This document shows, in pieces, positions 174 through 42,590 of a stretch of DNA of 43,948 nucleotides. Source of the DNA: an uncultured Elusimicrobiales bacterium (GTDB lineage: Bacteria > Elusimicrobiota > Elusimicrobia > Elusimicrobiales > Elusimicrobiaceae); the NCBI GenBank assembly GCA_944324105.1, contig CALUVA010000002.1:1-43948 (forward strand), given 5' to 3'. Positions within the stretch are counted from its first letter, which is position 1, and each line of letters starts with the position of its first letter. The position numbers were made by a program, and so were the translations under genes. Below the pieces are notes generated by a model. It worked only from the letters and a program-made list of their open reading frames with translations. It was not told where the DNA came from and did no database searches.

Positions 174-629
174 ATGTTTCAGATACGAAAAGCGGAACAA
201 AAAGACTTGGAAACCCTGGTGGATTTTAACAACCGCCTGGCTTTGGAAACCGAAAACCGCCCGCTGGACCTGCAGCGCCTGCGCGCGAGCATGCAGGCCA
301 TTTTGGACGACGAACGCAAAGGCGTTTATCTGCTGGCCTGCGACGGAGAAGAGGTACTGGGGCAGATTATGTACGTCTTTGAATGGAGCACCTGGCGCAA
401 CGCCAATTTTATGTGGCTGACGGATTTGTATGTGCCGCCGCAGCATCGTAAATGCGGTGTATTTAAATCCTTGTTCCGCGCAGTAATGGATTTTTATCAC
501 AGCCGCACAGACATCATCGGCCTGCGTTTTTATGTGGACAAAACGAATACCGCCGTCGTGCCGCTGTATAAAAAAGTAGGCTGGAAAGAGTCCAACTATA
601 ATTTGTGGGAAATTAAAAAGCATGACTGA
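174..629 (+). CDS. GNAT-family N-acetyltransferase
   Basis: This 151-residue protein has the size and layout of a single-domain GNAT acetyltransferase, which moves an acetyl group from acetyl-CoA to an amine. The core strand and pyrophosphate loop are visible as WLTDLYVPPQHRKCGVFKSL (residues about 82-101), a degenerate R/Q-x-x-G-x-G/A signature. The C-terminal N-T-A-V-V-P-L-Y-K-K-V-G-W segment is the typical end of the fold. A TATAAT box lies at 142-147. The gene overlaps the NRPS gene by 8 bases (ATGACTGA), so the two are probably translationally coupled and the enzyme may acetylate the NRPS product or a precursor. The substrate cannot be read from sequence. Confidence 0.85.
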   Translation: MFQIRKAEQKDLETLVDFNNRLALETENRPLDLQRLRASMQAILDDERKGVYLLACDGEEVLGQIMYVFEWSTWRNANFMWLTDLYVPPQHRKCGVFKSLFRAVMDFYHSRTDIIGLRFYVDKTNTAVVPLYKKVGWKESNYNLWEIKKHD

Positions 630-3600
630 ACGCCCCCAAAATATTTTAATCGTGGACGGCTACGCCACCGGCACCCAGTATGCCGCGCGTATCCGCGCGC
701 GGGGGATGAAGCCGTATCACATCACGTCCGGCTGGGAAAAACTTTCTTCCTTTTCGCCGGATTTTATGAACAAATACATCAAATCCCAGGTAGGCGGACT
801 GTATGAAGCCTGCTGGCGTATGCCAGACGATTTGGAACAGGCCGTACAAAAGCTCAAACCCTATCGTTTTGCCGCCGTTATCCCGGGTACGGAAACAGGC
901 GTCATCGCGGCCGAAACGCTGGCGCTGCGTCTGGGCCTGCCCGTTAATAAACCGGAACTGTTATGGGCGAGGCGGGATAAATTTCTCATGCAAAAAGCCC
1001 TGGCTGCGGCGGGACTGAACCACATTGATTCCTTTTTGACTGGCTCTTTGGACCAGGCCCTGGCCTGGTTTAAACAAAAAAATTACCCGCGTATTATCAT
1101 TAAACCCACACGCAGTGCGGGAACGGACGGCGTGGCTTCCTGCCAAAATGAAGACGAAATCGCCCGTTATTTTCACAAGTACCTGCACCAAACCGACGCC
1201 GCTGGCAACCTCAACGACCAACTGCTTTTGCAGGAATATGTGGAAGGGGACGAAATGGTGGTCAACTGCGTTTCCTGCCAGGGCCGCCACATTCTGACCG
1301 ATGTCCTGCTGTATAACAAAGTGCTGACCCGTTCCGGCGTGCCCGTTTATGAAGCCAGCAAACTAGTGCACGACATTTCCGGCCGCTATAAACAGGCCGC
1401 AGAATACACTTTTAAAGTGCTGGACGCGCTGGGCATTACGCGCAGTTCCTCACACAGCGAAATCAAACTGACGGACCGCGGCCCCGTGCTGGTGGAGACC
1501 GGCGCGCGCATTATGGGCAGCACGCCGCCGCAGTATTACGACGCACTGGGATACAACCTTATTGACTGGTCTTTAGACGCATACCTGGACCCTTCGGCCC
1601 ACCAAAAAAACGCCCGCAAGCCCTACGCGCCCAAAAAGCACTTCATGGCTAAATTTTTCATTTCCGAAAAAGACGCCCCCATAGATGAAGTAACGGCGGA
1701 AAAAACCCTGCCGCTCCTGGACTCTTTTGTTACCTCCAATTTCAACACATTAAAAATCACCAAGCGCCTGCATAAAACGGTGGATATGCCCTCCAAGCCT
1801 GGGGACTGTCTGCTCATGGCCGACTCCGAGCTGCAGCTGCTGCGCGATTACAACCTGTGCCGTTTTATGGAAAAATGCCGCAGCGGCCTTCTGTGGAGGG
1901 AAGCGGGACAGACGCTTACGGACGGTGAAAAATTACTGCTGGCCCAGCTGAAAGCCAAAGAATACCCGCAGGCAGATATAGACCGCGCGTTAAACGGCTA
2001 CCGCATGGGATACATGAATTACAAAAATACCCAGCTGTATGTATTAAACGGGGACTTGCTGCCCTGTCAGGCGGGTGAAAAAGGCGAGATATATGTAACG
2101 GGCGCCTATCTGGCCAAACGGCCCTACGATTTGCCCTGCGTGAAAAAGGAAAATTTTCTGCCCAATCCGTTTTACAGCGCTGTTACACGCCAGTATACGC
2201 CCATGTATCCGTTTTTGTATAAAACCGGCGATTATGCACTGGTCAATGCGGATGGATCTTTGTGGTTTATTGATAAAAAAACAAACAAACTGACCCATTC
2301 TTTCGGCAAGCATGAGCCGCGGCCTTTCTGGCCGCTGACCTACACCGAAAGGCAAATGGCCGCCGAGCAGCGCTTGTCGCCTTCGTCCAACGCATACAAC
2401 GCCAAATTTGCTTTTAAAATCACGGGACAGCTGGATTTGCGCCGCTTTAAAGAAGCATTAAAAATCTGGGTCGGGCGTTACCGTATTTTATCTTCATACT
2501 ATCCGACGGAAAACGGACAAATCGTGCATAAACTGGCCAAAGACCTGCCCCTTGCAATGACGGTATTTTCCTGCCCGTTTGGGCAGGCCATGAAAAAAAT
2601 AGAAGAGCTCAACGCCCCGTATGATATTTCCGTGCCTCCGCTGTACCGCTTTTACCTGTTTAAGACCGGCGCAAAAGAATATGTGTTCCACATGAACGCG
2701 CACCACATTATAGCCGACGGAGTCAGCGTAATCAGCATTATTGAAGAACTGTGGAAACTCTACAAAAACCGCCGCGCCAAAAAATTCCGCCTGGAAGAAG
2801 AAGACTTTTTGGATTATGCCCTGTGGCAGGAGCAAAACCCCGATTATAAAGACAAGGCACAGTTTTTCCTGGATATGTTTAAAGACGGCGTGCCGGAAAA
2901 CGAAATGCCGCTGCGCGGCCTGCGCCCCGAGATATTGCCGCATGCGGCACAGGTCAGCGCGGAATATTTATTTCCGACCGCACGCGTGGACGCGGCGGCC
3001 AAAACGCTGGGCGTTTCCCCTTCTTTGCTGCTGACGGCACTGTCCGCCGCCGCCCTGGCCAAATACACCGCCAGCGAAGATTTTGTGCTGGGCGTAATTA
3101 TGAACGGGCGCAGCCATCCGCAAAGCAAAAATATTTTCGGTATGTTCGTCAACGCCGTGCCCGTACGCTTTAAACCGCAGGGTGCGCTGACACTACAGGA
3201 ATATTTGCAGCGTTCCAATGAAGTTTTCCGCGGGGTAATCGCCAACCAGACCTGCCCGTTGGAATACCTGGTGCCCGTGCTGGCGCCGCGGCGGGACCTT
3301 TCGCGCAAACCGCTGTTTGACGTTATTGTTAACTACCGGCCGGAAATACGTCCTTTTTCCACGCCGGAAATAAACGTAACTTTTCTGCAAATGCGCCAAG
3401 CCACGCAAACGGATATGCAATTGGAAATTCTGCGTGGCACAAAAGACATAAATGTATCCGTTTCTTATTCCCGGCAGCTGTATCAGGACGAAGTGATTAC
3501 AGGCATACTGGATTTATTTAAAAATATGCTGGACCAAATTCTGCGAGACCCCTGCGCCAGAATAAAGCTCTCCGATCTGACAGCTCTGACGGCATCGCAG

Positions 3601-6153
3601 CGTAAACAGGTTTTATCGGATTTTGCCGGAAAACGAACTACTCCGCCGCAGGAAACCATCGTGGACACCTTCCGCCGTACGGCGCATACCTATGCTGCAC
3701 GCCCCGCCGTAGTCTGTGAAGGGCGTGTTTTGACCTATAAACAGCTGGACGAAGCCTCTGACCGCCTGGCCCTCCTGCTGGCACAAAAAGGCCTTAAACG
3801 CGGCGACAAAGCCGGCATTTTGGTCGGCCGCAGCGAAAATCTGCTGGTATATGCGCTGGGTATCTTAAAAACCGGCGCGGCATATGTGCCGCTGGACAGT
3901 TCCCACCCGCGGGAACGCATTCAGTTTATGCTCAAAGACGCAGCGGTAAAGCTGGTTATTGCCGATGAAGAATTTTTGCCTTTGGCCCAAGGAACCGCTG
4001 CTCTTACACCAAAACAGTTGGCCAAATTCGCTACCCCCGCCAAAGCCGCCGTTCCGCCCGCACCGGGTATGCCCGATGATTTCGTCATTTTATATACTTC
4101 CGGCACGACGGGCCAGCCTAAAGGGGTGGTGCTGACCCACCAAAATTTGGCCGTATTCTGCCAGGGGCACCGCAAACGCTTCCGCCTCGGCCCGCAGGAT
4201 CGCGTGGCCACCTCGGCGGGGTTGGGTTTTGACGCATGTATGATGGACTTTTACCCTACGCTGACCTGCGGCGGATGCGTGCATGTCATTGCGCAGGACA
4301 TCCGATTTGACATAGAGGCTTTAAACGAATACTATCTCAAAAACCAAATTACCGCCACACTGCTCACAACTCAGCTTGGGTATCAATTTGTCAAAAACAT
4401 TCAAAAGACCTCCCTGCGCTACCTCATTGTGGGCGGGGAAACCTTAACGCCCGTACAGCCGCCGAAAACATATAAACTTGTCAACGCCTACGGGCCGACG
4501 GAATGCACGGTATACGCTTCCTGTTTTACGGTGGACAAATTTTATGACCGCGTGCCTATCGGGCACCCGGCCGACAACTGCTCCGTCTATATTGTGGACA
4601 AAGCCGGCCGTCTGGCCCCTGTGGGCACGTTCGGGGAGCTCTGCATAGCGGGGCCCAATGTGGCGCGGGGATATCTCAATCACCCCAAACTGACGGCGGA
4701 AAAATTTGTGCCCAATCCTTTCAGTACCGAAAAAGGGTTTGAACGTATGTACCGTACCGGCGATTTTGCACGCTTTAATCCGCAGGGGATACTGGAATTT
4801 TTAGGCCGCAAAGACGGCCAGGTGAAAATACGCGGCTTTCGCATAGAGTTAAACGAAATAGAACTGCAGTTGCGCAAATTTAAAACTGTCCAAGACGCCA
4901 CCGTCATCGCCCGTGAAGACAAAAGCGGGAATAAATATGTGGTAGCCTATTTTGTTTCAAAAGAAAAGACCGATGCAGCCGCCTTAAAACGCTTTTTGGA
5001 AGACAGCCTGCCGCCTTATATGATACCCGCCTTTTTCGTGCAGGTGGACCATATTCCTTTAAATCCCAACGGCAAAGTGGACCGCCGCGCCCTGCCGGAG
5101 CCGGACCTGTCCGCCCGCAGTACGGCCAAATACGCTGCGCCGCAGGGACGCATTGAAAAAGAACTGATGTATATTTGGGCCCAGCTGCTGAATATGGACC
5201 CCGCACACATCGGCCGCGACGACAATTTCTTTGATTTGGGCGGCACATCTTTGCGTTCTACGGAGCTTTCCCTGCGCATACGCGACGTATTCAGGGAACA
5301 TATTTCCCCCGCCCTGATTTTTAAATACCCCACCCTGCGCGAACAGGCAGAGTATCTGGACAGCCACAACAGTTTTCCCATGGTACACGCGTTCAATACG
5401 CAGGGCAACAAAACACCGCTGATTTTTATACACACGGCCAATGCCGGCTCGGAAGCCTATGTGCCGCTGGCGGCCAAACTGCCGCCGGACCAGCCCTTTT
5501 ACGCCGTGGAACCCCATAATATTTTCAGCGGGGAAGACGTTATCCGCGGCATACCGCAGCTGGCCAAACGCTACATCAAATACATCCGCCGCGTACAGCC
5601 CAAAGGGCCGTACAGTCTGGGCGGCTGGTCCTTCGGGGCGGCGGTGGCGTATGAAATTGCCGTTCAGCTGGAAAAGGCCGGAGAACGGGTGGAATGGCTG
5701 TTTTTGCTGGACCCGCTGATAGAACACAGCCAAGAGGAGCAGGAGCTGACCAAAAAACTGATCGGCACTTCTTTTTTCCACGGTTATTTAAACAACGATC
5801 CGCTGTTTGCGCGTTTTAAAAAGCTGGGGCTGGTGGACAAGCTGCTTTCCAACAGCAAAGCCGTGTTTGAAGACATGTTTGCCTTCAAACCGCGTCCGTA
5901 CGGCGGCAACGTGATTTTGTTTAAGGCCACGCGGCCCGACCCTCCTGCCAAAGACATAGACCCCGCCATGGCCCGCGCCCTGCTCTCTTTCCAGCGCGCG
6001 CATATTGCGCAAAAGGACAACGGGTTTAAAAAATATGTGCGCCGTTTGCAGGTAATTCCCATTTTTTCGCGGCATGATTTCCTGATGCGCGGCAATGCGC
6101 TGGAAATAATTGCCCGCGTCATCGCCCAAAAAGGAAAACGCCGTGTCCGTTAA
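622..6153 (+). CDS. Hybrid ATP-grasp / nonribosomal peptide synthetase (ATP-grasp, A-fragment, C, A, PCP, TE)
   Basis: This is a cytosolic 1843-residue assembly-line enzyme. Residues 1 to about 410 form an ATP-grasp ligase (IIIKPTRSAGTDG at 158-170, VETGARIMG at 291-299). Residues about 485-555 look like a decayed piece of an adenylation domain. A condensation domain follows with an intact HHxxxDG motif (694-700). A complete adenylation domain runs from about 1010 to 1495 (YTSGTTGQPKG near 1158, NAYGPTE at 1288-1294, YRTGD at 1377-1381, NGKVDRR near 1483). The carrier-protein serine is Ser1543 in DLGGTSL. A thioesterase ends the protein (GGWSFG with Ser1670, Asp near 1697, His1818). One full module plus an ATP-grasp unit suggests a very short peptide or amide product released by the thioesterase. 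The product is unknown. It overlaps both neighbours. Confidence 0.93.
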   Translation: MTERPQNILIVDGYATGTQYAARIRARGMKPYHITSGWEKLSSFSPDFMNKYIKSQVGGLYEACWRMPDDLEQAVQKLKPYRFAAVIPGTETGVIAAETLALRLGLPVNKPELLWARRDKFLMQKALAAAGLNHIDSFLTGSLDQALAWFKQKNYPRIIIKPTRSAGTDGVASCQNEDEIARYFHKYLHQTDAAGNLNDQLLLQEYVEGDEMVVNCVSCQGRHILTDVLLYNKVLTRSGVPVYEASKLVHDISGRYKQAAEYTFKVLDALGITRSSSHSEIKLTDRGPVLVETGARIMGSTPPQYYDALGYNLIDWSLDAYLDPSAHQKNARKPYAPKKHFMAKFFISEKDAPIDEVTAEKTLPLLDSFVTSNFNTLKITKRLHKTVDMPSKPGDCLLMADSELQLLRDYNLCRFMEKCRSGLLWREAGQTLTDGEKLLLAQLKAKEYPQADIDRALNGYRMGYMNYKNTQLYVLNGDLLPCQAGEKGEIYVTGAYLAKRPYDLPCVKKENFLPNPFYSAVTRQYTPMYPFLYKTGDYALVNADGSLWFIDKKTNKLTHSFGKHEPRPFWPLTYTERQMAAEQRLSPSSNAYNAKFAFKITGQLDLRRFKEALKIWVGRYRILSSYYPTENGQIVHKLAKDLPLAMTVFSCPFGQAMKKIEELNAPYDISVPPLYRFYLFKTGAKEYVFHMNAHHIIADGVSVISIIEELWKLYKNRRAKKFRLEEEDFLDYALWQEQNPDYKDKAQFFLDMFKDGVPENEMPLRGLRPEILPHAAQVSAEYLFPTARVDAAAKTLGVSPSLLLTALSAAALAKYTASEDFVLGVIMNGRSHPQSKNIFGMFVNAVPVRFKPQGALTLQEYLQRSNEVFRGVIANQTCPLEYLVPVLAPRRDLSRKPLFDVIVNYRPEIRPFSTPEINVTFLQMRQATQTDMQLEILRGTKDINVSVSYSRQLYQDEVITGILDLFKNMLDQILRDPCARIKLSDLTALTASQRKQVLSDFAGKRTTPPQETIVDTFRRTAHTYAARPAVVCEGRVLTYKQLDEASDRLALLLAQKGLKRGDKAGILVGRSENLLVYALGILKTGAAYVPLDSSHPRERIQFMLKDAAVKLVIADEEFLPLAQGTAALTPKQLAKFATPAKAAVPPAPGMPDDFVILYTSGTTGQPKGVVLTHQNLAVFCQGHRKRFRLGPQDRVATSAGLGFDACMMDFYPTLTCGGCVHVIAQDIRFDIEALNEYYLKNQITATLLTTQLGYQFVKNIQKTSLRYLIVGGETLTPVQPPKTYKLVNAYGPTECTVYASCFTVDKFYDRVPIGHPADNCSVYIVDKAGRLAPVGTFGELCIAGPNVARGYLNHPKLTAEKFVPNPFSTEKGFERMYRTGDFARFNPQGILEFLGRKDGQVKIRGFRIELNEIELQLRKFKTVQDATVIAREDKSGNKYVVAYFVSKEKTDAAALKRFLEDSLPPYMIPAFFVQVDHIPLNPNGKVDRRALPEPDLSARSTAKYAAPQGRIEKELMYIWAQLLNMDPAHIGRDDNFFDLGGTSLRSTELSLRIRDVFREHISPALIFKYPTLREQAEYLDSHNSFPMVHAFNTQGNKTPLIFIHTANAGSEAYVPLAAKLPPDQPFYAVEPHNIFSGEDVIRGIPQLAKRYIKYIRRVQPKGPYSLGGWSFGAAVAYEIAVQLEKAGERVEWLFLLDPLIEHSQEEQELTKKLIGTSFFHGYLNNDPLFARFKKLGLVDKLLSNSKAVFEDMFAFKPRPYGGNVILFKATRPDPPAKDIDPAMARALLSFQRAHIAQKDNGFKKYVRRLQVIPIFSRHDFLMRGNALEIIARVIAQKGKRRVR

Positions 6154-35435: not shown

Positions 35436-35490
35436 TAAATGGTGTGCCCAACAGGAATCGAACTTGTATCTTCAGCTCCGCAAGCTGACA
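35436..35490 (-). repeat. Left att-like repeat: 3' half of tRNA-Arg(GCG)
   Basis: This 55-bp stretch matches 42512-42566 at 53 of 55 positions in the same orientation. It covers the tRNA 3' end, T-arm, variable loop and anticodon arm, after which similarity to the tRNA stops. This is the expected outcome of site-specific integration at a tRNA gene. Confidence 0.85.
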
Positions 35491-35558: not shown

Positions 35559-35587
35559 ACGACATTTAAATGACAAATTGCTATAAT
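35559..35587 (+). promoter_or_regulatory. Promoter of the WYL regulator, with operator O1 over the -35 box
   Basis: ACGACA (35559-35564), a 17-bp spacer and TATAAT (35582-35587) with an extended TGC. The palindrome CGACATTTAAATGAC (35560-35574) covers the -35 box. Transcription starting 7 bases after the -10 would begin at or next to ATG 35594, giving a leaderless message. Confidence 0.65.
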
Positions 35588-35593
35588 CTTATT

Positions 35594-36382
35594 ATGTCCA
35601 AAGAAATTACCGGTAAAACTAAACGTATAGCAGATATTTTGTCTTTATTGGAACATGCGCCTGTAAAACTGCCTGAATTAGCGGCCCAATTTGGGGTTTC
35701 TAAACGCACTATTCAGCGCGATATGGAATTAATAGCACAGGCACAATTTCCGGTTATTTCCCCTAAACAAAGCATATACATGTTAGCACCGGGGTTCTCT
35801 TTAACCGCGGCTAACCTATCTGCCGAGCAGGCCAGTTTGCTCATTATGGCAGCGGATATTTCCCATCAACTAGGGGGCCGTTTTTCCCAAATACTGGAAG
35901 AAATTGCTCAACGTTTTATACCCTCATCCTTTGAACACTGCGTATTTGGTGCCACTAAATACGATTTTGCCGAAACGGCCGAACCTGCTATTACCTTTTT
36001 AAAATGTATTAAATACCATTGTTTAGTGCGGGTATATTTAAAGAACTTCAAAAAAAACCGCACCTTATATCCCTATCGTCTCCTTCGTCTCTACGATAAA
36101 TGGCATGTGGTTAGTGTAAATTCCAAGGGAGAAATTTCTTGCTATGCTTTGGAAAATATAGGCAACTTCTCTTTGCGGGAAGATAGAGATACCTCCACCG
36201 GATATGCCCAATTCCAGCCGATTCCCTTTATCGACTGGGCCATTTGGCAGCATGCTCATCAGTGGGTAAAGGATCAAGCGCCTCAACCTGTACAAAACGC
36301 TGCTCCCTTAGCATCCGAACCGCAGGCCACAGTTGCCATAGAGGCTATCCCCGAAAAGCCCTCCCAAACACTACCATCTTAA
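35594..36382 (+). CDS. HTH + WYL-domain transcriptional regulator
   Basis: This 262-residue protein has an N-terminal helix-turn-helix (I-A-D-I-L-S-L-L-E-H, then L-P-E-L-A-A-Q-F-G-V-S-K-R-T-I-Q-R-D-M) like DeoR/HTH_11 regulators. Its WYL domain lies around residues 125-190 (L-Y-P-Y-R-L-L-R-L-Y-D-K-W-H-V-V-S-V). The C-terminal about 40 residues are proline/alanine-rich and probably disordered. WYL domains bind nucleotides, oligonucleotides or ssDNA in several families and often control phage-defence loci (BrxR/CapW type). I start at ATG 35594 because ATG 35570 lies inside its own operator and upstream of the predicted transcript start. Three palindromes in the island are its likely operators. 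Confidence 0.85.
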   Translation: MSKEITGKTKRIADILSLLEHAPVKLPELAAQFGVSKRTIQRDMELIAQAQFPVISPKQSIYMLAPGFSLTAANLSAEQASLLIMAADISHQLGGRFSQILEEIAQRFIPSSFEHCVFGATKYDFAETAEPAITFLKCIKYHCLVRVYLKNFKKNRTLYPYRLLRLYDKWHVVSVNSKGEISCYALENIGNFSLREDRDTSTGYAQFQPIPFIDWAIWQHAHQWVKDQAPQPVQNAAPLASEPQATVAIEAIPEKPSQTLPS

Positions 36383-36449: not shown

Positions 36450-36478
36450 TGGACAAAAAGCCCTTTTTATGCTATAAT
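36450..36478 (+). promoter_or_regulatory. Main island promoter
   Basis: TGGACA (36450-36455), a 17-bp spacer and TATAAT (36473-36478) preceded by TGC. Operators O2 and O3 flank it on both sides, so looping repression by the WYL protein is plausible. Transcription would start near 36485 and run about 500 bases through the SAM riboswitch before the first large gene. Confidence 0.7.
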
Positions 36479-36662: not shown

Positions 36663-36754
36663 TAGATCCATATAGAGTGTACGAGGGACAAGCCCGATGA
36701 CTACACAGCAACCTGCCTAAGGGTAAGGTGCTAAAGCTTGAACGATGGGAACTA
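36663..36754 (+). promoter_or_regulatory. SAM-I (S-box) riboswitch aptamer
   Basis: The conserved S-box core is present: GAGGGAC (36683-36689), GCCCGATGA (36692-36700), CAGCAACC (36706-36713) and GGTGCTAAA (36727-36735). P2 is GTGTA (36677-36681) with TACAC (36702-36706), with the kink-turn bases in GATGA. P1 is TAGATCCAT (36663-36671) with ATGGGAACTA (36745-36754), one mismatch and one bulge. The P1 3' strand can instead pair with GTAGAACCCAT (36772-36782) as an antiterminator. With SAM bound P1 forms and the terminator follows, so the downstream genes should be expressed when SAM is low. The P4 region is short compared with the consensus. Confidence 0.85.
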
Positions 36755-36773
36755 CAACCGTTTTATTGTGAGT

Positions 36774-36805
36774 AGAACCCATTGGAGACGATGGGTTCTT
36801 TTTTA
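36774..36805 (+). terminator. Riboswitch expression-platform terminator
   Basis: AGAACCCAT (36774-36782) pairs with ATGGGTTCT (36791-36799), followed by a run of T. The 5' arm is shared with the antiterminator formed by the aptamer's P1 3' strand, giving a textbook on/off switch. Confidence 0.88.
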
Positions 36806-36808
36806 CCA

Positions 36809-36845
36809 CCTCTCTGATGGGACATTCCCAAAGAGGGGTTTTTTT
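36809..36845 (+). terminator. Second tandem terminator
   Basis: CCTCT/AGAGG enclosing TGGGA/TCCCA, followed by seven T. It comes directly after the riboswitch terminator and before the first large gene at 37001, so the operon faces two stop signals. How read-through of the second is achieved is not obvious. An 18-base GC-poor spacer then leads to a 9-codon ATG frame at 36846-36875. Confidence 0.75.
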
Positions 36846-37000
36846 ATGGCTAAAAGAAATTTTGCCTACAAGTAAGAAAAATTAATTTTTCAGCCGTGTG
36901 TGAATACTGATGGGCAATTATCTTGAAGTGCAAAAGCTGTGTAGTAAGAATTTGACTATAGAAATTGGAATATTTATCGCTATATACAAAGGAAATGAAT

Positions 37001-38365
37001 ATGAAAACAACGAAGAAGGCTACAACTATTAAAAAATATACTTCACGTGCGGAATTGATTGGGCAGTTAACCCGGTGGCATGCCAAATGCGGTGTAGCTA
37101 TACGCCAAGCCGAGTGTGTAGAGCTGTTCAAGGAAATCTGCGCACGCTTAAAAAAGACCAATGGCAAAAAAGTGCCTATGGCTGCTCTCGTGCAAGAATA
37201 TAAGTTAAACGATACAGAACTGTTTTTATTGTTATTTTTGGCCACATCCCAGGTCTTGCGGGTCATCACACCGTCTACTTGCAAGGTCACAGCACTGTTG
37301 GAAAGCGCCCAAACCTTTGCCTCTTCCAAAGAAGTATTGGAAACTCTTTTTGACGGAAAAAGCGTGCTTTTTAGCAAAAAGATTTTAGTTTTATCCGGGG
37401 GAATATTAGACATAAAGAAAAACCCCCTCTTGACTCCGCCGCCGAGCAAACCTCGTCCTGCGATTCGCCGCACGTTCAGTGCTCAACGGGTTTTGGCGGA
37501 GCTGAATAAATATGTTATCGGGCAAGAAAATGCAAAAAAACAATTGGTAGCCGGAGTATTTGAACATTTAACAAAATGTGCCATAAAACCTGATATGACG
37601 TTTACAAAAAACAACATTTTTATCAGCGGGCCAACAGGCTGCGGCAAAACCTATTTATGCCAGTCTTTAGCACGTATTTTGAAACTTCCATTTGTTCATG
37701 CAGACGCTTCCCAATACACCCAAACCGGCTATGTCGGTATGAGCGTGGGCAATATTCTGCAACCGCTACATTCGCTGGCAAATGACAAGAAGTTGCCGCT
37801 TTCTATCGTGTTTATAGATGAAATTGACAAATTACATGAAGGGGGCGAACGCTGGGGCGTTGCTTCCAGCAATGTGCAGGCGGAGCTTTTGCGTATGATA
37901 GAAGGCCAATATTTCACCACCGAAGATCCTATTACTCATAAAAACATAGACTTGGATGTTTCCCGTGTAATTTTTGTAGTAGGTGGTGCTTTTGAAAACT
38001 TACAGGTAAAACACGCTGATAAGTCCGTCGGTTTTACACAAGGCAACGGCGTGCGCAAAGAGGCGCTGTCGGCAGATGATTATATTGGTTATGGGATGTT
38101 ACCGGAATTTATTGGGAGATTTTCATACTTTGTGCAGTTAAACCCGCTAGAAAAAGAAGATTTACGCCGTATTTTACTTAACCCCTACAACGGCCCGATC
38201 AGCCAATACGAAAAGCTATTGCATAGATCCACGTCCCTGCGGCCGGAACAAGTAGAAGAAATGGTCAATCAAGCTTATGAGCGGCGTTTGGGAGCGCGAG
38301 GCTTACAACAGCAAGTAGGGCAGTTATTTCAAGAGCAATTTTTACACCAAACAGTAAAGGTCTAA
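37001..38365 (+). CDS. ClpX-like AAA+ unfoldase with a novel N-terminal domain
   Basis: This 454-residue protein aligns by eye with ClpX from about residue 160 onward: Walker A G-P-T-G-C-G-K-T (210-217), pore loop G-Y-V-G (243-246), Walker B V-F-I-D-E-I-D (270-276), arginine finger in E-F-I-G-R-F (Arg373) and sensor-2 G-A-R-G-L (431-435). The loop that in ClpX carries the IGF ClpP-docking tripeptide reads V-G-F (343-345). The zinc-binding N-domain of ClpX is absent. A mostly helical about 140-residue domain replaces it. It probably unfolds specific proteins, perhaps feeding host ClpP. ATG 37001 is chosen over 36995 for its spacing to AAAGGAA. Confidence 0.85.
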   Translation: MKTTKKATTIKKYTSRAELIGQLTRWHAKCGVAIRQAECVELFKEICARLKKTNGKKVPMAALVQEYKLNDTELFLLLFLATSQVLRVITPSTCKVTALLESAQTFASSKEVLETLFDGKSVLFSKKILVLSGGILDIKKNPLLTPPPSKPRPAIRRTFSAQRVLAELNKYVIGQENAKKQLVAGVFEHLTKCAIKPDMTFTKNNIFISGPTGCGKTYLCQSLARILKLPFVHADASQYTQTGYVGMSVGNILQPLHSLANDKKLPLSIVFIDEIDKLHEGGERWGVASSNVQAELLRMIEGQYFTTEDPITHKNIDLDVSRVIFVVGGAFENLQVKHADKSVGFTQGNGVRKEALSADDYIGYGMLPEFIGRFSYFVQLNPLEKEDLRRILLNPYNGPISQYEKLLHRSTSLRPEQVEEMVNQAYERRLGARGLQQQVGQLFQEQFLHQTVKV

Positions 38366-38469: not shown

Positions 38470-38580
38470 ATGGCAGAACAAAAATATGAATGCAGTCGTT
38501 GTCGGCAAGTTTTTGTCTTTACGTTTCCCCCTTCTGGGATGAAATGTCCCTCTTGCGGCGGGCCTTTGTTTAGGAAGTAA
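38470..38580 (+). CDS. 36-residue zinc-ribbon protein
   Basis: This short gene is well formed: AGGAGA lies 7 bases before ATG 38470 and the frame ends at TAA 38580. The protein has two knuckles, C-S-R-C (residues 8-11) and C-P-S-C (27-30), spaced as in rubredoxin-like or FmdB-like zinc ribbons. The ClpX-like protein has lost its own zinc domain, so this peptide could supply an adaptor or substrate-binding zinc module in trans. That role is speculation. Confidence 0.7.
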   Translation: MAEQKYECSRCRQVFVFTFPPSGMKCPSCGGPLFRK

Positions 38581-38740: not shown

Positions 38741-39355
38741 ATGGCTTCAACTCAACAGGAAACAGAATTAACAAAAATTTTGGAAATATTTGAAGGGAGG
38801 GTTGTGTCCCCTACGGAAAAAGAAGCCCCCCAAGAAGAGGATGACATTTTTGCCCGCCATCTAACCCCCGCGGAACGCAAATTGTTACAACAGTTTACCT
38901 GTTTGCGCTTTTTTAGCCAAATAGACACACTGGTCTGTGAGTTGGGGCTTACGGCGGAGTTTTTCCGGCGGGCTCAGGGGGCCTTGCGGGAACTGGCTAC
39001 TTTTTTACCGTTAAACGATTTGCAAATAGTTCTATTTGTGGTACTTTATATGAACTCCGAAGATACAGGCTCTGATATTGATATAAACACGATTTGTGAG
39101 GCTTTACACCTACCCAGCCAGCGTTTACTTAGTTTAATAGATTGGCGAGAAATGGAAGATATGGGTTTGTTAAAGACAAATTTTCAGTGCTCTCCGGCTG
39201 TTTTGCGCTTGCCGGAACAGGTAATAGACGCCGTGGCAATGGTAGATATGGCCTTTTATTTAAAACTTTTTAAAAACAGAGGCGCCGAAGGGACAGTAGA
39301 GGACAAAACTGATTTATTTATGCTTATCTCTTTAGGAAGGATAAAGAAAAAATGA
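38741..39355 (+). CDS. Unrecognised helical protein, possible winged-helix adaptor
   Basis: I do not recognise this 204-residue protein. It is mostly helical with a long acidic N-terminal segment (E-A-P-Q-E-E-D-D). A stretch L-P-L-N-D-L-Q-I-V-L-F-V-V-L-Y (about 91-105) followed by I-C-E-A-L-H-L-P-S-Q-R-L-L-S-L-I-D and M-G-L-L-K looks like a winged helix. The N-terminal domain of the ClpX-like protein has a comparable L-N-D-T-E-L-F-L-L-L-F-L pattern, so the two may share a fold and interact. Its stop overlaps the next start (ATGA), so co-translation is likely. GAGG lies about 10 bases before the ATG. Confidence 0.6.
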   Translation: MASTQQETELTKILEIFEGRVVSPTEKEAPQEEDDIFARHLTPAERKLLQQFTCLRFFSQIDTLVCELGLTAEFFRRAQGALRELATFLPLNDLQIVLFVVLYMNSEDTGSDIDINTICEALHLPSQRLLSLIDWREMEDMGLLKTNFQCSPAVLRLPEQVIDAVAMVDMAFYLKLFKNRGAEGTVEDKTDLFMLISLGRIKKK

Positions 39356-40206
39356 GCGTTCAAACTATTTATATTGCAAAACCTACACCGGAAGTGTTAA
39401 AAATTTATCCGGCTTATCGGGGCTTTTTTCCGGGTTTTTATGAGGCTTTGATAGAGTTTCACCCGGTCAAAATGCTGGAATTGCCCGACATTTGGGTGCG
39501 GGACTTTCTACCCGTTCAAAACAGCAAAACAGGAGAACTTTTTCAGCTTGGTTTTAACCCTCGTTATGCCAACTACACCCCCAAGTTTACGATTGAAATA
39601 AACACCGCAGTACGGCGTTTATTCCCCGTGAGGGAATGCGTGCTGCCTTTAGACGGGGGCAACATTGTACGCGGGCCGGACGGAATGGTGTTTTGTTTAG
39701 AGAGCAGACGTCTTTTCAGAAAGTCTGTTCCTGAAGAGCAAGGCTTGGCTGAAGATGCGCTCTGCCCTGCGCTAGGTACAGAACACATTGTCTGGCTGCC
39801 CAGGGAAATAGGCGATAAGGTTGGACATATAGATGGATTTATGCAATTTATCGGTGATACGCTTTTTGTCAGCGATGAACGCTTTGACCCTTATTTGGAA
39901 CAGCTTTTGTATCGCCGACTGGAAAAAGTACGTCAGGTATATTGGAACTTGAAAGCACGCTTCTTGCCCTGTGTGCAGGACGCAGCAGACCCAAGCGGAT
40001 TAAGCGCGCGGGGCGTATACGTCAATTTCTTAGAAACAGCCTGTGCAGTTTTTGTACCGAAATACAATTTGCCGCAGGACGAAGAAGTACTTGCTATAAT
40101 AAAAACAGCCACTGACAAACCGGTAGTCGGGATAGACTGTACTGAAATAGCACGCTATGGCGGGGCGCTGCATTGTTTAACCAGAGAGTATGAGGGAGAA
40201 CTATGA
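39352..40206 (+). CDS. Agmatine deiminase / PPAD-family guanidino hydrolase
   Basis: This 284-residue protein belongs to the bacterial-type peptidylarginine/agmatine deiminase family. Key residues are present: I-W-V-R-D (47-51), L-D-G-G-N (100-104), G-H-I-D-G (158-162) with the catalytic His, and G-G-A-L-H-C (270-275) with the nucleophilic Cys275. The enzyme would release ammonia from a guanidino group (agmatine, arginine residue or another compound). It is about 70-80 residues shorter than typical agmatine deiminases and lacks a signal peptide. No putrescine-pathway partner is nearby, so a peptide or small-molecule role within the island is possible. It overlaps both neighbouring genes by 4 bases. 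Confidence 0.85.
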   Translation: MSVQTIYIAKPTPEVLKIYPAYRGFFPGFYEALIEFHPVKMLELPDIWVRDFLPVQNSKTGELFQLGFNPRYANYTPKFTIEINTAVRRLFPVRECVLPLDGGNIVRGPDGMVFCLESRRLFRKSVPEEQGLAEDALCPALGTEHIVWLPREIGDKVGHIDGFMQFIGDTLFVSDERFDPYLEQLLYRRLEKVRQVYWNLKARFLPCVQDAADPSGLSARGVYVNFLETACAVFVPKYNLPQDEEVLAIIKTATDKPVVGIDCTEIARYGGALHCLTREYEGEL

Positions 40207-40802
40207 CTTTAAATCAACACTTTAATGTCTTCTTAAAAAATAATAAAAATAATGAGCATGCGGCAATGATAGAGATGGCCGACTACATATTTAAAAACTG
40301 TTGCCTGCAGGCGGGAGATACGCCTTATTGGTTTACGGAAATAGAGTTTTATTATTATACGCCGAACCACAGAGACCCTTTTTGCAAACGGAATCCCATA
40401 AAGCCGCAAGATACTAAATTCCCGGAAGTAGCCAGCGATAAACTGTTTTTCCATTATTCCGGGGTAGATATCAGTTTTGATAGTCCTGAGCCCGATAAAA
40501 TGAAGCGCCAATATGGCGGAATCTTAATCCGCGGGATAAAAAATCCGGATGAGAAATGTGCGGTCAGCGGACCCTTAAAAGTGCTGTGCCACTTGCTTAA
40601 CAAAACGCAACAAACAAAAGATGGACGATTAACACTTCAATTGGCGCCTTCTCCTTTTTCGGATACGTATAAGTTCATTCCTCGCTATGGTTTGTCCGCA
40701 CCCACAGGGGATGACCTCAAACAGGACTTTGTTGCCAAACTCTATCGCTTTCACTTAAGCCAGGCAACAGGCGTAAAGCAAGCCAAAACAGGTAAAAAAT
40801 AA
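40203..40802 (+). CDS. Unrecognised conserved-looking protein (possible distant MPG-like fold)
   Basis: I cannot assign this 199-residue protein with confidence. It has F-T-E-I-E-F-Y-Y-Y-T-P-N-H-R-D-P-F (about 44-60), F-H-Y-S-G-V-D-I-S-F and Y-G-G-I-L-I-R-G-I. The E-x-E-F-Y followed by D-P-F and a later F-H-x-S-G-V-D and G-G-I-L-I-R arrangement is faintly reminiscent of 3-methyladenine DNA glycosylase (MPG-type), whose catalytic Glu lies in E-V-E-A-Y. That is a weak similarity. It is sandwiched by 4-base overlap between the deiminase and the nuclease, so it is part of the same system. Confidence 0.6.
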   Translation: MTLNQHFNVFLKNNKNNEHAAMIEMADYIFKNCCLQAGDTPYWFTEIEFYYYTPNHRDPFCKRNPIKPQDTKFPEVASDKLFFHYSGVDISFDSPEPDKMKRQYGGILIRGIKNPDEKCAVSGPLKVLCHLLNKTQQTKDGRLTLQLAPSPFSDTYKFIPRYGLSAPTGDDLKQDFVAKLYRFHLSQATGVKQAKTGKK

Positions 40803-40806
40803 ATAT

Positions 40807-42267
40807 ATGTTATCCAAATCCCAATACACCAAATACAAAGGTTGCCCCAAACACTTGTGGCTGTACCGAAACAAAAAAGAGGTTTTAACCCCGCCAGATG
40901 AGGCCACCCAAAAGAAACTCGCCCGCGGGCAGGATATTGGTCTTTTAGCACAAAAGCAGTTCCCAGGCGGAGTGGCGGTGCAGGACGGGTGGAAAAATCC
41001 TTCCGCAGCTGTTGCCCAAACGCGGGGATTAATGGCCCGCGGCGTGCCCGCCATTTACGAAGCGACTTTTTTATACAACGGCATTTGTGTACTGGTGGAT
41101 ATTTTGGAAAAAACACCCACAGGCTGGAACATTGTGGAAGTAAAAAGCAGCGGAAAGAACCTAAAAGCCATTTATGTGGACGATGTTTCTATACAAAACT
41201 ATGTGGTGTCTAACTGCGGGGTAGCGGTGGAGCATTGTTATTTAATGCACATCAATACGGATTATTTCCAAACCACGCAAGAACCCGATTGGAAACAGTT
41301 TTTCCTCTTAACGCTTTTAGACCCGGAACTTACGCCTATCAAAGAGATTGAACAGGATATTCAGGACATTAAAGCTTTACTGGCCGCGCCAGAGCCACAA
41401 GCCCTGTTGGACAAAAGCGGCTGCGCGGGTTGTGAAGCCTATGCTTATTGCTGGCGGGATGTTCCGAAAGACTCTGTGTTTGAAGTGTTCCGCAGTAATG
41501 CCGCGCGGGAATATATGGCCTTGGGCATTTTGCGCGTGCAAGACGTGCCGCCTGACAGTTGCAATACGGATAAACTAAACCATTGGGTAGAAGTGTACCG
41601 CACCCAGCGGCCCTATATAGACCGTACGGCGGTGGCCCAATGGTTAAACAAGCTGGAATATCCGCTGTATTATTTTGATTTTGAAACGACTCAACCCGTC
41701 GTTCCGCTGTGGCCGTACAGCCGGCCCTATCAGCAGATACCGTTCCAGTTTTCGCTGCATATCCAACACAAGCCCAACGGGCCTTATGAACATAAGGAAT
41801 ACTTGTTTGAGGGGAAACAAGACCCGCGCTACGGCTGTGTGGACGCGATGCTTAAATATATTGGTGAAAAAGGAACGTTAATTGCTCACCACGCCACGTT
41901 TGAAAAAACACGCATACGGGAAATGGCTAACGACTTGCCTATCCCGCAGGAGCAAAAAGACGCGCTTTTGCGTATGAGCGAGCGGTTTATGGACACGGAA
42001 ACTCCGTTTAAGCAGGATTATTTGCACCCCAATATGCACGGCAGTTCATCTATTAAAAAGGTTTTGCCGTCCCTGGTGCCGGAAATGACGTATGAAGGTA
42101 TGCCCGTGGCCAATGGTGGGGACGCGATGAACGCGTTTGACGAGTTGTATTTCGGCAATTTATCCGAAGAGGCCGCTCGGCAACTACGCCAGGATTTACT
42201 GGCCTATTGCAAGCAAGACACCTGGGCAATGGTAAAACTAGTGGACGCCTTGCGGGATAGTGTGTAA
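40807..42267 (+). CDS. DUF2779 protein: Cas4-like nuclease fused to a DEDD exonuclease
   Basis: This 486-residue protein has two nuclease parts. Residues about 1-220 are Cas4/RecB-like: Cys13 in K-G-C-P-K-H-L-W-L-Y, Glu85, Asp98, and E-V-K at 111-113, and a cysteine cluster C-x2-C-x5-C at 206, 209 and 215 that could hold an iron-sulfur centre. Residues about 285-480 are a DEDD-type 3'-5' exonuclease (D-F-E-T-T at 291-295, L-I-A-H-H-A-T-F-E near 358, Y-C-K-Q-D-T-W near the end), which fits DUF2779. It probably degrades or trims DNA or RNA. It is the last gene of the island, just before the terminator. Confidence 0.85.
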   Translation: MLSKSQYTKYKGCPKHLWLYRNKKEVLTPPDEATQKKLARGQDIGLLAQKQFPGGVAVQDGWKNPSAAVAQTRGLMARGVPAIYEATFLYNGICVLVDILEKTPTGWNIVEVKSSGKNLKAIYVDDVSIQNYVVSNCGVAVEHCYLMHINTDYFQTTQEPDWKQFFLLTLLDPELTPIKEIEQDIQDIKALLAAPEPQALLDKSGCAGCEAYAYCWRDVPKDSVFEVFRSNAAREYMALGILRVQDVPPDSCNTDKLNHWVEVYRTQRPYIDRTAVAQWLNKLEYPLYYFDFETTQPVVPLWPYSRPYQQIPFQFSLHIQHKPNGPYEHKEYLFEGKQDPRYGCVDAMLKYIGEKGTLIAHHATFEKTRIREMANDLPIPQEQKDALLRMSERFMDTETPFKQDYLHPNMHGSSSIKKVLPSLVPEMTYEGMPVANGGDAMNAFDELYFGNLSEEAARQLRQDLLAYCKQDTWAMVKLVDALRDSV

Positions 42268-42511: not shown

Positions 42512-42566
42512 TAAATGGTGCGCCCAACAGGAATCGAACTTGTATCTTCAGCTCCGCAGGCTGACA
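42512..42566 (-). repeat. Right att-like repeat within tRNA-Arg(GCG)
   Basis: This is the intact-tRNA copy of the 55-bp direct repeat at 35436-35490. The two mismatches lie in the acceptor stem and the anticodon arm. Confidence 0.85.
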
Positions 42567-42590
42567 CTCTATCCATTGAGCTATGGGCGC
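42516..42590 (-). tRNA. tRNA-Arg, anticodon GCG
   Basis: The cloverleaf is complete: acceptor GCGCCCA with TGGGCGC, D-arm with AGCTCAATGGATAGAGT, anticodon loop CTGCGGA (anticodon GCG, reading CGC) and T-arm GTTCGATTC. The discriminator is A and CCA is encoded. The island is joined to its 3' end. Confidence 0.93.

Follow-up and report, generated by a model that had tools for sequence, protein, structure and literature searches.

A ClpX-like unfoldase gene behind a SAM-I riboswitch in a tRNA-Arg island of an Elusimicrobiales bacterium

Introduction

What does a ClpX-like unfoldase work with when it lacks the zinc-binding N-domain of ClpX, and what decides when it is made? The question is raised by a 43,948-nt stretch of DNA from an uncultured Elusimicrobiales bacterium of the gut (contig CALUVA010000002.1; this whole stretch is called the window below). 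An earlier note had described one of its genes as a ClpX paralogue in a dedicated protease adaptor system that uses the host ClpP, with a small zinc ribbon encoded next door as a possible substitute for the missing domain. Here, we examine the protein and its relatives, the RNA leader of the gene and the surrounding genes to determine which parts of that description hold.

Sequence and structure of the ClpX-like protein

The gene and its main features are located as follows.

37001-38365, + strand: clpX-like gene, 454 aa; N-domain at residues 1-146, AAA+ large and small domains at about 158-454
37001-37438, + strand: N-domain, residues 1-146, winged-helix-like, without a zinc finger
37727-37738, + strand: pore loop 1 GYVG, residues 243-246
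38027-38035, + strand: V-G-F docking tripeptide, residues 343-345, in a flexible loop (341-357)

The start codon ATG at 37001 is preceded by AAAGGA at 36988-36993. The protein matched the Pfam AAA_2 profile (E 3.9e-20) and the NCBIfam ClpX profile (E 4.9e-62), remaining below the ClpX equivalog cut-offs (NF003745, 210.1 vs 359 bits; TIGR00382, 182.1 vs 370.75). Walker A, Walker B, the Arg finger, the sensor-2 GAR and GYVG were all intact, and the best sequence matches among solved structures were ClpX chains, with whose IGF the V343-G344-F345 tripeptide aligned. The ClpX zinc finger (PF06689) produced no match in the protein and the RKH loop of ClpX was absent from it in the alignment; in the branch to which the window gene belongs, both this loop and the RDVSG pore-2 segment are gone. 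These observations bear out the earlier description: the ClpX-type AAA+ protein is intact, has GYVG and V-G-F, and lacks the zinc N-domain. The accompanying statement that all AAA+ motifs are intact holds for the Walker motifs, the Arg finger, sensor-2 and GYVG, and fails for the RKH loop and RDVSG.

The AlphaFold2 model reached a mean pLDDT of 75.7, with the AAA+ blocks mostly above 90. Residues 1-146 were modeled as helical at low confidence, which, with the missing PF06689 match, agrees with the earlier view that about 140 helical residues replace the N-domain of ClpX. In the comparison of the model with solved structures (VIA-align), ClpX came first with Z of 25-31 (for 4i34_B, Z 29.8 and 2.4 Å over 278 residues) and HslU next with Z of 24-25. 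HslU is thus the next-best fold at Z of about 25, but the sequence match of the window protein to HslU is weaker than that to ClpX. HslU works with HslV rather than ClpP and carries an I-domain. A likeness to DolB of the Dodola system was also detected with PADLOC (E 1.9e-10 over residues 162-280), but this match covers only part of the AAA+ core and is far weaker than the ClpX match.

A separate family and its patchy distribution

We inspected two sets of 80 ClpX relatives each, one taken from named genomes and the other from viral contigs, and nearly all of these proteins had the zinc finger. L055, L084 and L188, which lacked it, did not match the window-type N-domain either, and this domain was absent from both sets; with the query used, a search of viral contigs for the N-domain itself was likewise negative. 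The 36 distinct proteins that combine this N-domain with the absence of a zinc finger, hereafter WHD-ClpX for winged-helix ClpX, were all collected through searches of Elusimicrobiota. In an unrooted tree of 35 WHD-ClpX and 21 canonical ClpX proteins, the WHD-ClpX sequences formed one side of a branch with support of 100/99, and eight canonical ClpX proteins of the same phylum grouped with the other canonical ones. As judged from these searches and the tree, the window protein belongs to a separate ClpX family, seen here only in Elusimicrobiota genomes.

The N-domain resembles the winged-helix variant PF22977, which was matched by 14 of the 35 rows in the alignment (a free-standing relative of the domain, described below, accounting for three rows) with a best E of 1.9e-9; the window's own N-domain matched it weakly (E 0.004). 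A match of the N-domain profile to Glr1262 in the PDB (E 2.9e-4) was rejected, because it sums three weak stretches and the accessible portions of the relevant papers place that protein in phycobilisomes. Pvc15 was also set aside as a winged-helix precedent, the available part of its paper containing nothing supportive. Among the papers listed by literature searches, none dealt with a zinc-less ClpX of Elusimicrobiota, and the accessible text of a 2007 survey (PMC2258182) contains neither "protease" nor "ClpX". Two loci are worth recording in their own right: L161 (G283) is a contig with a tandem pair of WHD-ClpX genes, and at L121:5330-9027 (G038) a WHD-ClpX gene is followed by Ser/Thr-kinase-like and cysteine-rich DnaJ-like proteins, as judged by eye.

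To place the gene among its closest relatives we used 61 genomes, 37 from a single genus, among them the window genome, and 24 from a second family in the order. None of them yielded a canonical ClpX (0 genomes passing the TIGR00382 cut-off and 0 matching the zinc finger of ClpX, with controls detected), and neither did the window assembly as one of them, which spans 1.32 Mb and is 81% complete; this assembly does encode a ClpC-like protein with an LGF loop. Canonical ClpX occurs elsewhere in the phylum, with the zinc finger confirmed in all eight proteins fetched. The designation "ClpX paralogue" therefore has to be given up, since neither the window's own assembly, at its 81% completeness, nor 60 relatives yielded a resident ClpX of which the protein could be a paralogue. 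The clpX-like gene itself is patchy, occurring in 5 of the 37 genus genomes and 6 of the 24 from the other family. Canonical ClpX and WHD-ClpX are found together in six genomes of the phylum, G117, G125, G101, G156, G140 and G208 (L163, L167, L248-L251, L254-L259).

The docking loop and its possible partner

Within the family, the docking tripeptide is strongly conserved: among 35 proteins, 19 have IGF, 15 VGF and one AGF, so that [IV]GF is found in 34, and the loop around it differs in both length and sequence between members. The pore loop reads GYVG in 25 of the 35 and GYTG, GYSG, GYAG, GYHG or GFVG in the remainder. RKH persists in 1/35 family proteins vs 19/21 canonical ClpX, and RDVSG in 11/35 vs 21/21. 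From the counts for the tripeptide, RKH and RDVSG, it follows that the contact to ClpP would be kept while the substrate-recognizing parts of ClpX are not. A dN/dS of about 0.08 for the clpX-like gene (against three orthologues), together with the persistence of [IV]GF despite the variation of the loop, indicates that the frame is not a chance one and that the gene is under purifying selection.

In the model, residues 341-357 form a low-confidence, flexible loop between helices 334-340 and 358-364, at the position of the ClpX IGF loop; the earlier note had staked its reading on a docking loop being present in the model at residues 335-350. The claim of a ClpP-docking tripeptide at the IGF position is thus upheld by both conservation and model. 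A potential partner is also available, as that note had assumed, given that the genome encodes a single full-length ClpP with conserved catalytic blocks; ClpP was detected at full strength in 58 of the 61 relatives. On these sequence comparisons, the ClpX-like protein likely docks on ClpP. This reading is weakened by the loop itself, which measures 17 residues in the window protein model and has N349 instead of a hydrophobic residue at the position of V274 of E. coli ClpX. In the accessible portion of the E. coli study (PMC7112951), the docking loop comprises residues 263-283, i.e., 21 residues, altered loop length lowers ClpP affinity, and contacts are made via I268, F270 and V274. Overall, the window protein shares with ClpX the AAA+ large and small domains, the Walker motifs, GYVG, the Arg finger and an [ILV]GF loop, but differs in its missing zinc-binding N-domain, RKH and RDVSG, its shorter docking loop and its own clade (100/99).

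A SAM-I riboswitch leader upstream of the gene

The region directly upstream of the clpX-like gene contains a riboswitch with its antiterminator and terminator (36665-36799), which had been overlooked in the earlier reading.

36665-36751, + strand: SAM-I riboswitch aptamer (RF00162), 56.9 bits (gathering score 44.4)
36744-36783, + strand: predicted antiterminator, in which 36744-36755 (P1 3' side) pairs with 36772-36783 (terminator 5' arm), -11.3 kcal/mol
36774-36799, + strand: intrinsic terminator hairpin of 11 pairs followed by a U run
about 36809-36846, + strand: second T-run hairpin, read by eye
36450-36478, + strand: promoter-like site TGGACA-17-TATAAT with TG, 11/12, from a scan that overall performed no better than shuffles

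The aptamer match is full-length and has the conserved core. In predicted folds, an RNA ending before the 3' arm of the terminator adopts the antiterminator, and the terminator with its U run appears once the leader is complete. The antiterminator duplex was found at -6.6 to -13.9 kcal/mol in those leaders, 23 out of 24, in which both arms could be located. Across 24 leaders, 99.1% of the cells of 28 leader and terminator pairs can pair, and 9 of the 28 show two-sided changes; slid controls formed 31-44%, a comparison favored by the derivation of the structure from the same sequences. As predicted from pairing and conservation, the leader is a SAM-I aptamer with an expression platform that competes with P1. 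In S-box logic, SAM silences and low SAM activates, and the clpX-like gene would respond to SAM accordingly.

The association between riboswitch and gene is confined to one branch of the family. All 16 other loci of the window branch have the aptamer above the gathering score (50.8-65.3 bits), and none of the 22 WHD-ClpX loci of other branches has it, so that SAM control is not a family-wide trait; the second ClpX-like gene of G135 (C8) belongs to another branch and has no riboswitch. An independent search of 90 genomes of the bacterial family with strict filters revealed that SAM-I is rare there, with 35 matches in 29 genomes; 17 of these matches belong to the window branch, one about 200-400 nt upstream of each of its 17 genes (17/17). 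The 18 other matches were all inspected and had no clpX-like gene nearby. Several of them precede a family of about 304-340 aa (L301, L304, L305, L321, L324, L326), for which five proteins scanned (three and two) gave no Pfam match; others precede small uncharacterized proteins, and at L302:2147-2843 (G018) the riboswitch is followed by the free-standing N-domain relative alone, without a clpX-like gene. For L306, L329 and L330, the first gene behind SAM-I was assessed by eye alone. At several of these 18 loci, WYL, PAD or DUF2779 recurs, or a double-AAA protein with an N-terminal part that looks by eye like the winged-helix domain; in L301 and L305, a double-AAA protein of about 670 aa lies on the opposite strand. 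No methionine or SAM family was matched among 20 proteins scanned near SAM-I riboswitches, and none of the riboswitches in these genomes was seen ahead of a methionine gene. The element therefore resembles known SAM-I (S-box) leaders in its full-length aptamer, conserved core and P1/antiterminator/terminator logic, but differs in standing ahead of an AAA+ unfoldase and other island genes, with no methionine or SAM gene among those tested.

The tRNA-Arg island and its residents

The clpX-like gene lies within about 7.08 kb flanked by tRNA-Arg repeats, boundaries that the earlier reading had missed.

35436-35490, no strand assigned: left direct repeat, a copy of the 3' part of tRNA-Arg(GCG), 96% over 55 nt
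42512-42566, no strand assigned: right direct repeat, within tRNA-Arg(GCG) at 42516-42590 (- strand)
35570-36382, + strand: HTH-WYL-type regulator gene, 270 aa (PADLOC WYL, E 3.9e-17)
38470-38580, + strand: 36-aa zinc-ribbon ORF with four Cys, a neighbor judged not to be part of the ClpX-like module
38741-39355, + strand: 204-aa co-resident with no assigned function and no significant profile match to the N-domain
39352-40206, + strand: peptidyl-arginine/agmatine deiminase-like co-resident
40203-40802, + strand: 199-aa co-resident with no assigned function
40807-42267, + strand: DUF2779 co-resident with Cas4-like and RNase H-like parts

Direct repeats of the tRNA 3' end at both borders, also present in G034 where the same att pair encloses 17.9 kb, are those of a tRNA-integrated genomic island; the difference is that no recombinase or integrase was matched among the seven island proteins scanned. 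In G007 and G033, DUF2779 islands occupy the same tRNA sequence without a clpX-like gene. The tRNA-Arg(GCG) site thus appears as a hotspot with differing cargo and no recognizable integrase in the window, G034, G007 and G033. The 204-aa and deiminase-like genes (38741-40206) travel together, and deiminase-like genes were also observed near WHD-ClpX in the distant loci L248 and L251. Elsewhere in the window, positions 622-6153 hold an open frame of 1843 aa.

DUF2779 co-occurs with the clpX-like gene, being present in 8 of 11 carriers vs 5 of 50 other genomes (Fisher p 5.5e-5, the genomes being related) and, within the other family alone, in 3/6 vs 2/18 (p 0.08). As a functional partner it was rejected, given the relatedness of the genomes and the case of G033, where DUF2779 occupies this tRNA with no ClpX beside it; a shared hotspot suffices to account for the co-occurrence in the genus. 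The upstream HTH-WYL protein recalls the WYL regulators of defence islands, of which BrxR is an example in the accessible part of PMC9122601, but its WYL domain falls below the Pfam cut-off and no known defence system was recognized around the clpX-like gene. By association alone, the presence of WYL regulators together with Cas4-like genes points to a neighborhood of the defence type; a defence role of the clpX-like gene itself is a guess.

Conserved neighbors of the gene

Gene neighborhoods were compared over about 1.5 kb to each side in 17 loci of the window gene's branch, the near-identical copies of G174 and G232 being counted separately. A 170-aa free-standing relative of the N-domain lies directly downstream of the clpX-like gene in 12 of the 17, its copies being 52-100% identical to the L115 query (the L148 copy is truncated). 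Profile alignment of the N-domain with this protein by hhalign gave 95% and E 2.7e-8, and 96% and E 3.8e-9 with larger alignments; in tblastn of the free relative against the window, the N-domain was the only significant match (E 1.8e-5). A WYL-type regulator is found upstream in 13/17 loci and a LemA-like gene within 1.5 kb downstream in 11/17, "LemA-like" being a by-eye label for proteins without a Pfam match. In 6 of 23 wider loci, the LemA-like gene is accompanied by a TPR membrane gene of 526-557 aa. The LemA-like protein of L114 matched PHROG 1383 (E 5e-26), whose name, "virion structural protein", is to be treated with care. The window locus has neither the free N-domain relative nor the LemA-like and TPR membrane genes and, by comparison with the other loci, has lost the gene for the free relative, which we regard as a real candidate companion of the ClpX-like protein.

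The zinc ribbon behaves differently. The ORF exists where the earlier note had placed it, 104 nt from the clpX-like ORF, but its proposed role as a stand-in for the N-domain is not sustained: it adjoins the clpX-like gene in 1 of 17 loci, that of the window, and 4 of the 8 relatives (of 61) that have it are without a clpX-like gene. In G010, G015 and G034, a DUF2779 gene is no more than about 1.3 kb away from it, and we rejected the ribbon as a partner on these three grounds. The 204-aa neighbor was likewise rejected as a further N-domain, given hhalign E of 0.05-0.4 and its occurrence in G007 without a clpX-like gene; its single-sequence structure model was uninformative (pLDDT 45).

Discussion

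The family, the motifs kept and lost, the riboswitch architecture and its association with the window branch are established. Building on them, we infer that the gene encodes an island-borne, ClpP-docking, non-canonical ClpX-type unfoldase that is switched on when SAM falls, a reading whose docking and SAM response are both inferred and to which we assign a probability of about 0.58. With ample SAM, the aptamer would close P1, the terminator would form and the clpX-like gene would stay silent; at low SAM, the 3' side of P1 would pair with the 5' arm of the terminator and the gene would be transcribed. The resulting hexamer would dock on the host's single full-length ClpP, and its N-domain would select a set of substrates different from that of ClpX. 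Substrate choice in most relatives probably also involves the free-standing N-domain relative encoded directly downstream, the gene lost here, and the upstream WYL regulator may add a second input. Points that count against this reading are the short docking loop, the loss of RKH and RDVSG in most family members, the restriction of the riboswitch to a single branch (0/22 loci elsewhere) and the missing free N-domain relative, LemA-like and TPR membrane genes of the window locus. The dedicated protease adaptor system proposed earlier thus survives as far as the conserved tripeptide and the ClpP of the genome carry it, and falls with respect to the zinc ribbon as its module.

Several other explanations draw on the same observations. 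A methionine or SAM-starvation response without any defence role, in which low SAM triggers selective proteolysis that rebalances metabolism, would differ from the preferred reading in purpose only and overlaps with it. The predicted ON state at low SAM speaks for it, but we consider it somewhat unlikely for a gene that no more than 5 of the 37 genus genomes carry and whose island also holds WYL and Cas4-like genes, and for a switch not seen in this family ahead of any methionine gene. Almost on a par, and also unlikely, is a ClpP-independent remodeller of a specific complex, such as the LemA-like and TPR membrane proteins, with the xGF loop as a relic. The downstream LemA-like genes (11/17 loci, with the TPR membrane gene in 6/23 wider ones), the shortened docking loop and the loss of RKH and RDVSG speak for such a remodeller; yet [IV]GF persists in 34/35 proteins although its flanks drift, and the window locus has kept the clpX-like gene, its riboswitch and VGF while lacking LemA and TPR genes.

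The remaining candidates fare worse. Service to island mobility, by disassembling recombination or replication complexes, is suggested by the att-like tRNA-Arg repeats bounding the island in the window and in G034; with no recombinase among the island proteins scanned, and with islands of the same kind lacking the clpX-like gene in G007 and G033, we hold it to be very unlikely. A housekeeping substitute for a lost ClpX would account for the 0/61 relatives with the canonical protein, but is highly improbable for a gene absent from most of these relatives (5/37 and 6/24 carriers), in a genome with a ClpC-like protein bearing an LGF loop, and for a protein missing RKH. Hardly credible is the completion of the ClpX-like protein by the 36-aa ribbon as a split zinc N-domain: the 104 nt between the two ORFs in the window invite the idea, which founders on adjacency in 1/17 loci, on the 4/8 ribbon genomes without the ClpX-like gene and on another gene, that of the free N-domain relative, being the conserved neighbor.

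Within the preferred reading of a SAM-regulated, ClpP-docking unfoldase, a more specific role may tentatively be proposed, which we think possible rather than probable: an alarm for SAM depletion, in which SAM keeps cassettes on mobile islands of this Elusimicrobiota family silent by way of an S-box attenuator that they have captured, until a collapse of SAM lets the ClpX-like motor feed chosen proteins to the host ClpP. Infection by phage T3 brings about such a collapse through the T3 SAM lyase, according to the accessible part of PMC7877911. If the alarm reading were true, it would point to a general SAM-sensing family of mobile cassettes, because the same switch precedes other uncharacterized genes in related islands.

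Whatever its trigger, the locus presents a natural ClpX without the zinc domain and RKH loop, in genomes where no canonical ClpX was found, which makes the roles of both parts testable. In addition, an AAA+ motor carried by an island stands here behind a metabolite riboswitch, a switch that other uncharacterized island genes share, and the idea that mobile genes may read the methylation state of their host can be tested on it directly. A switch that responded to infection would represent a new type of defence sensor.
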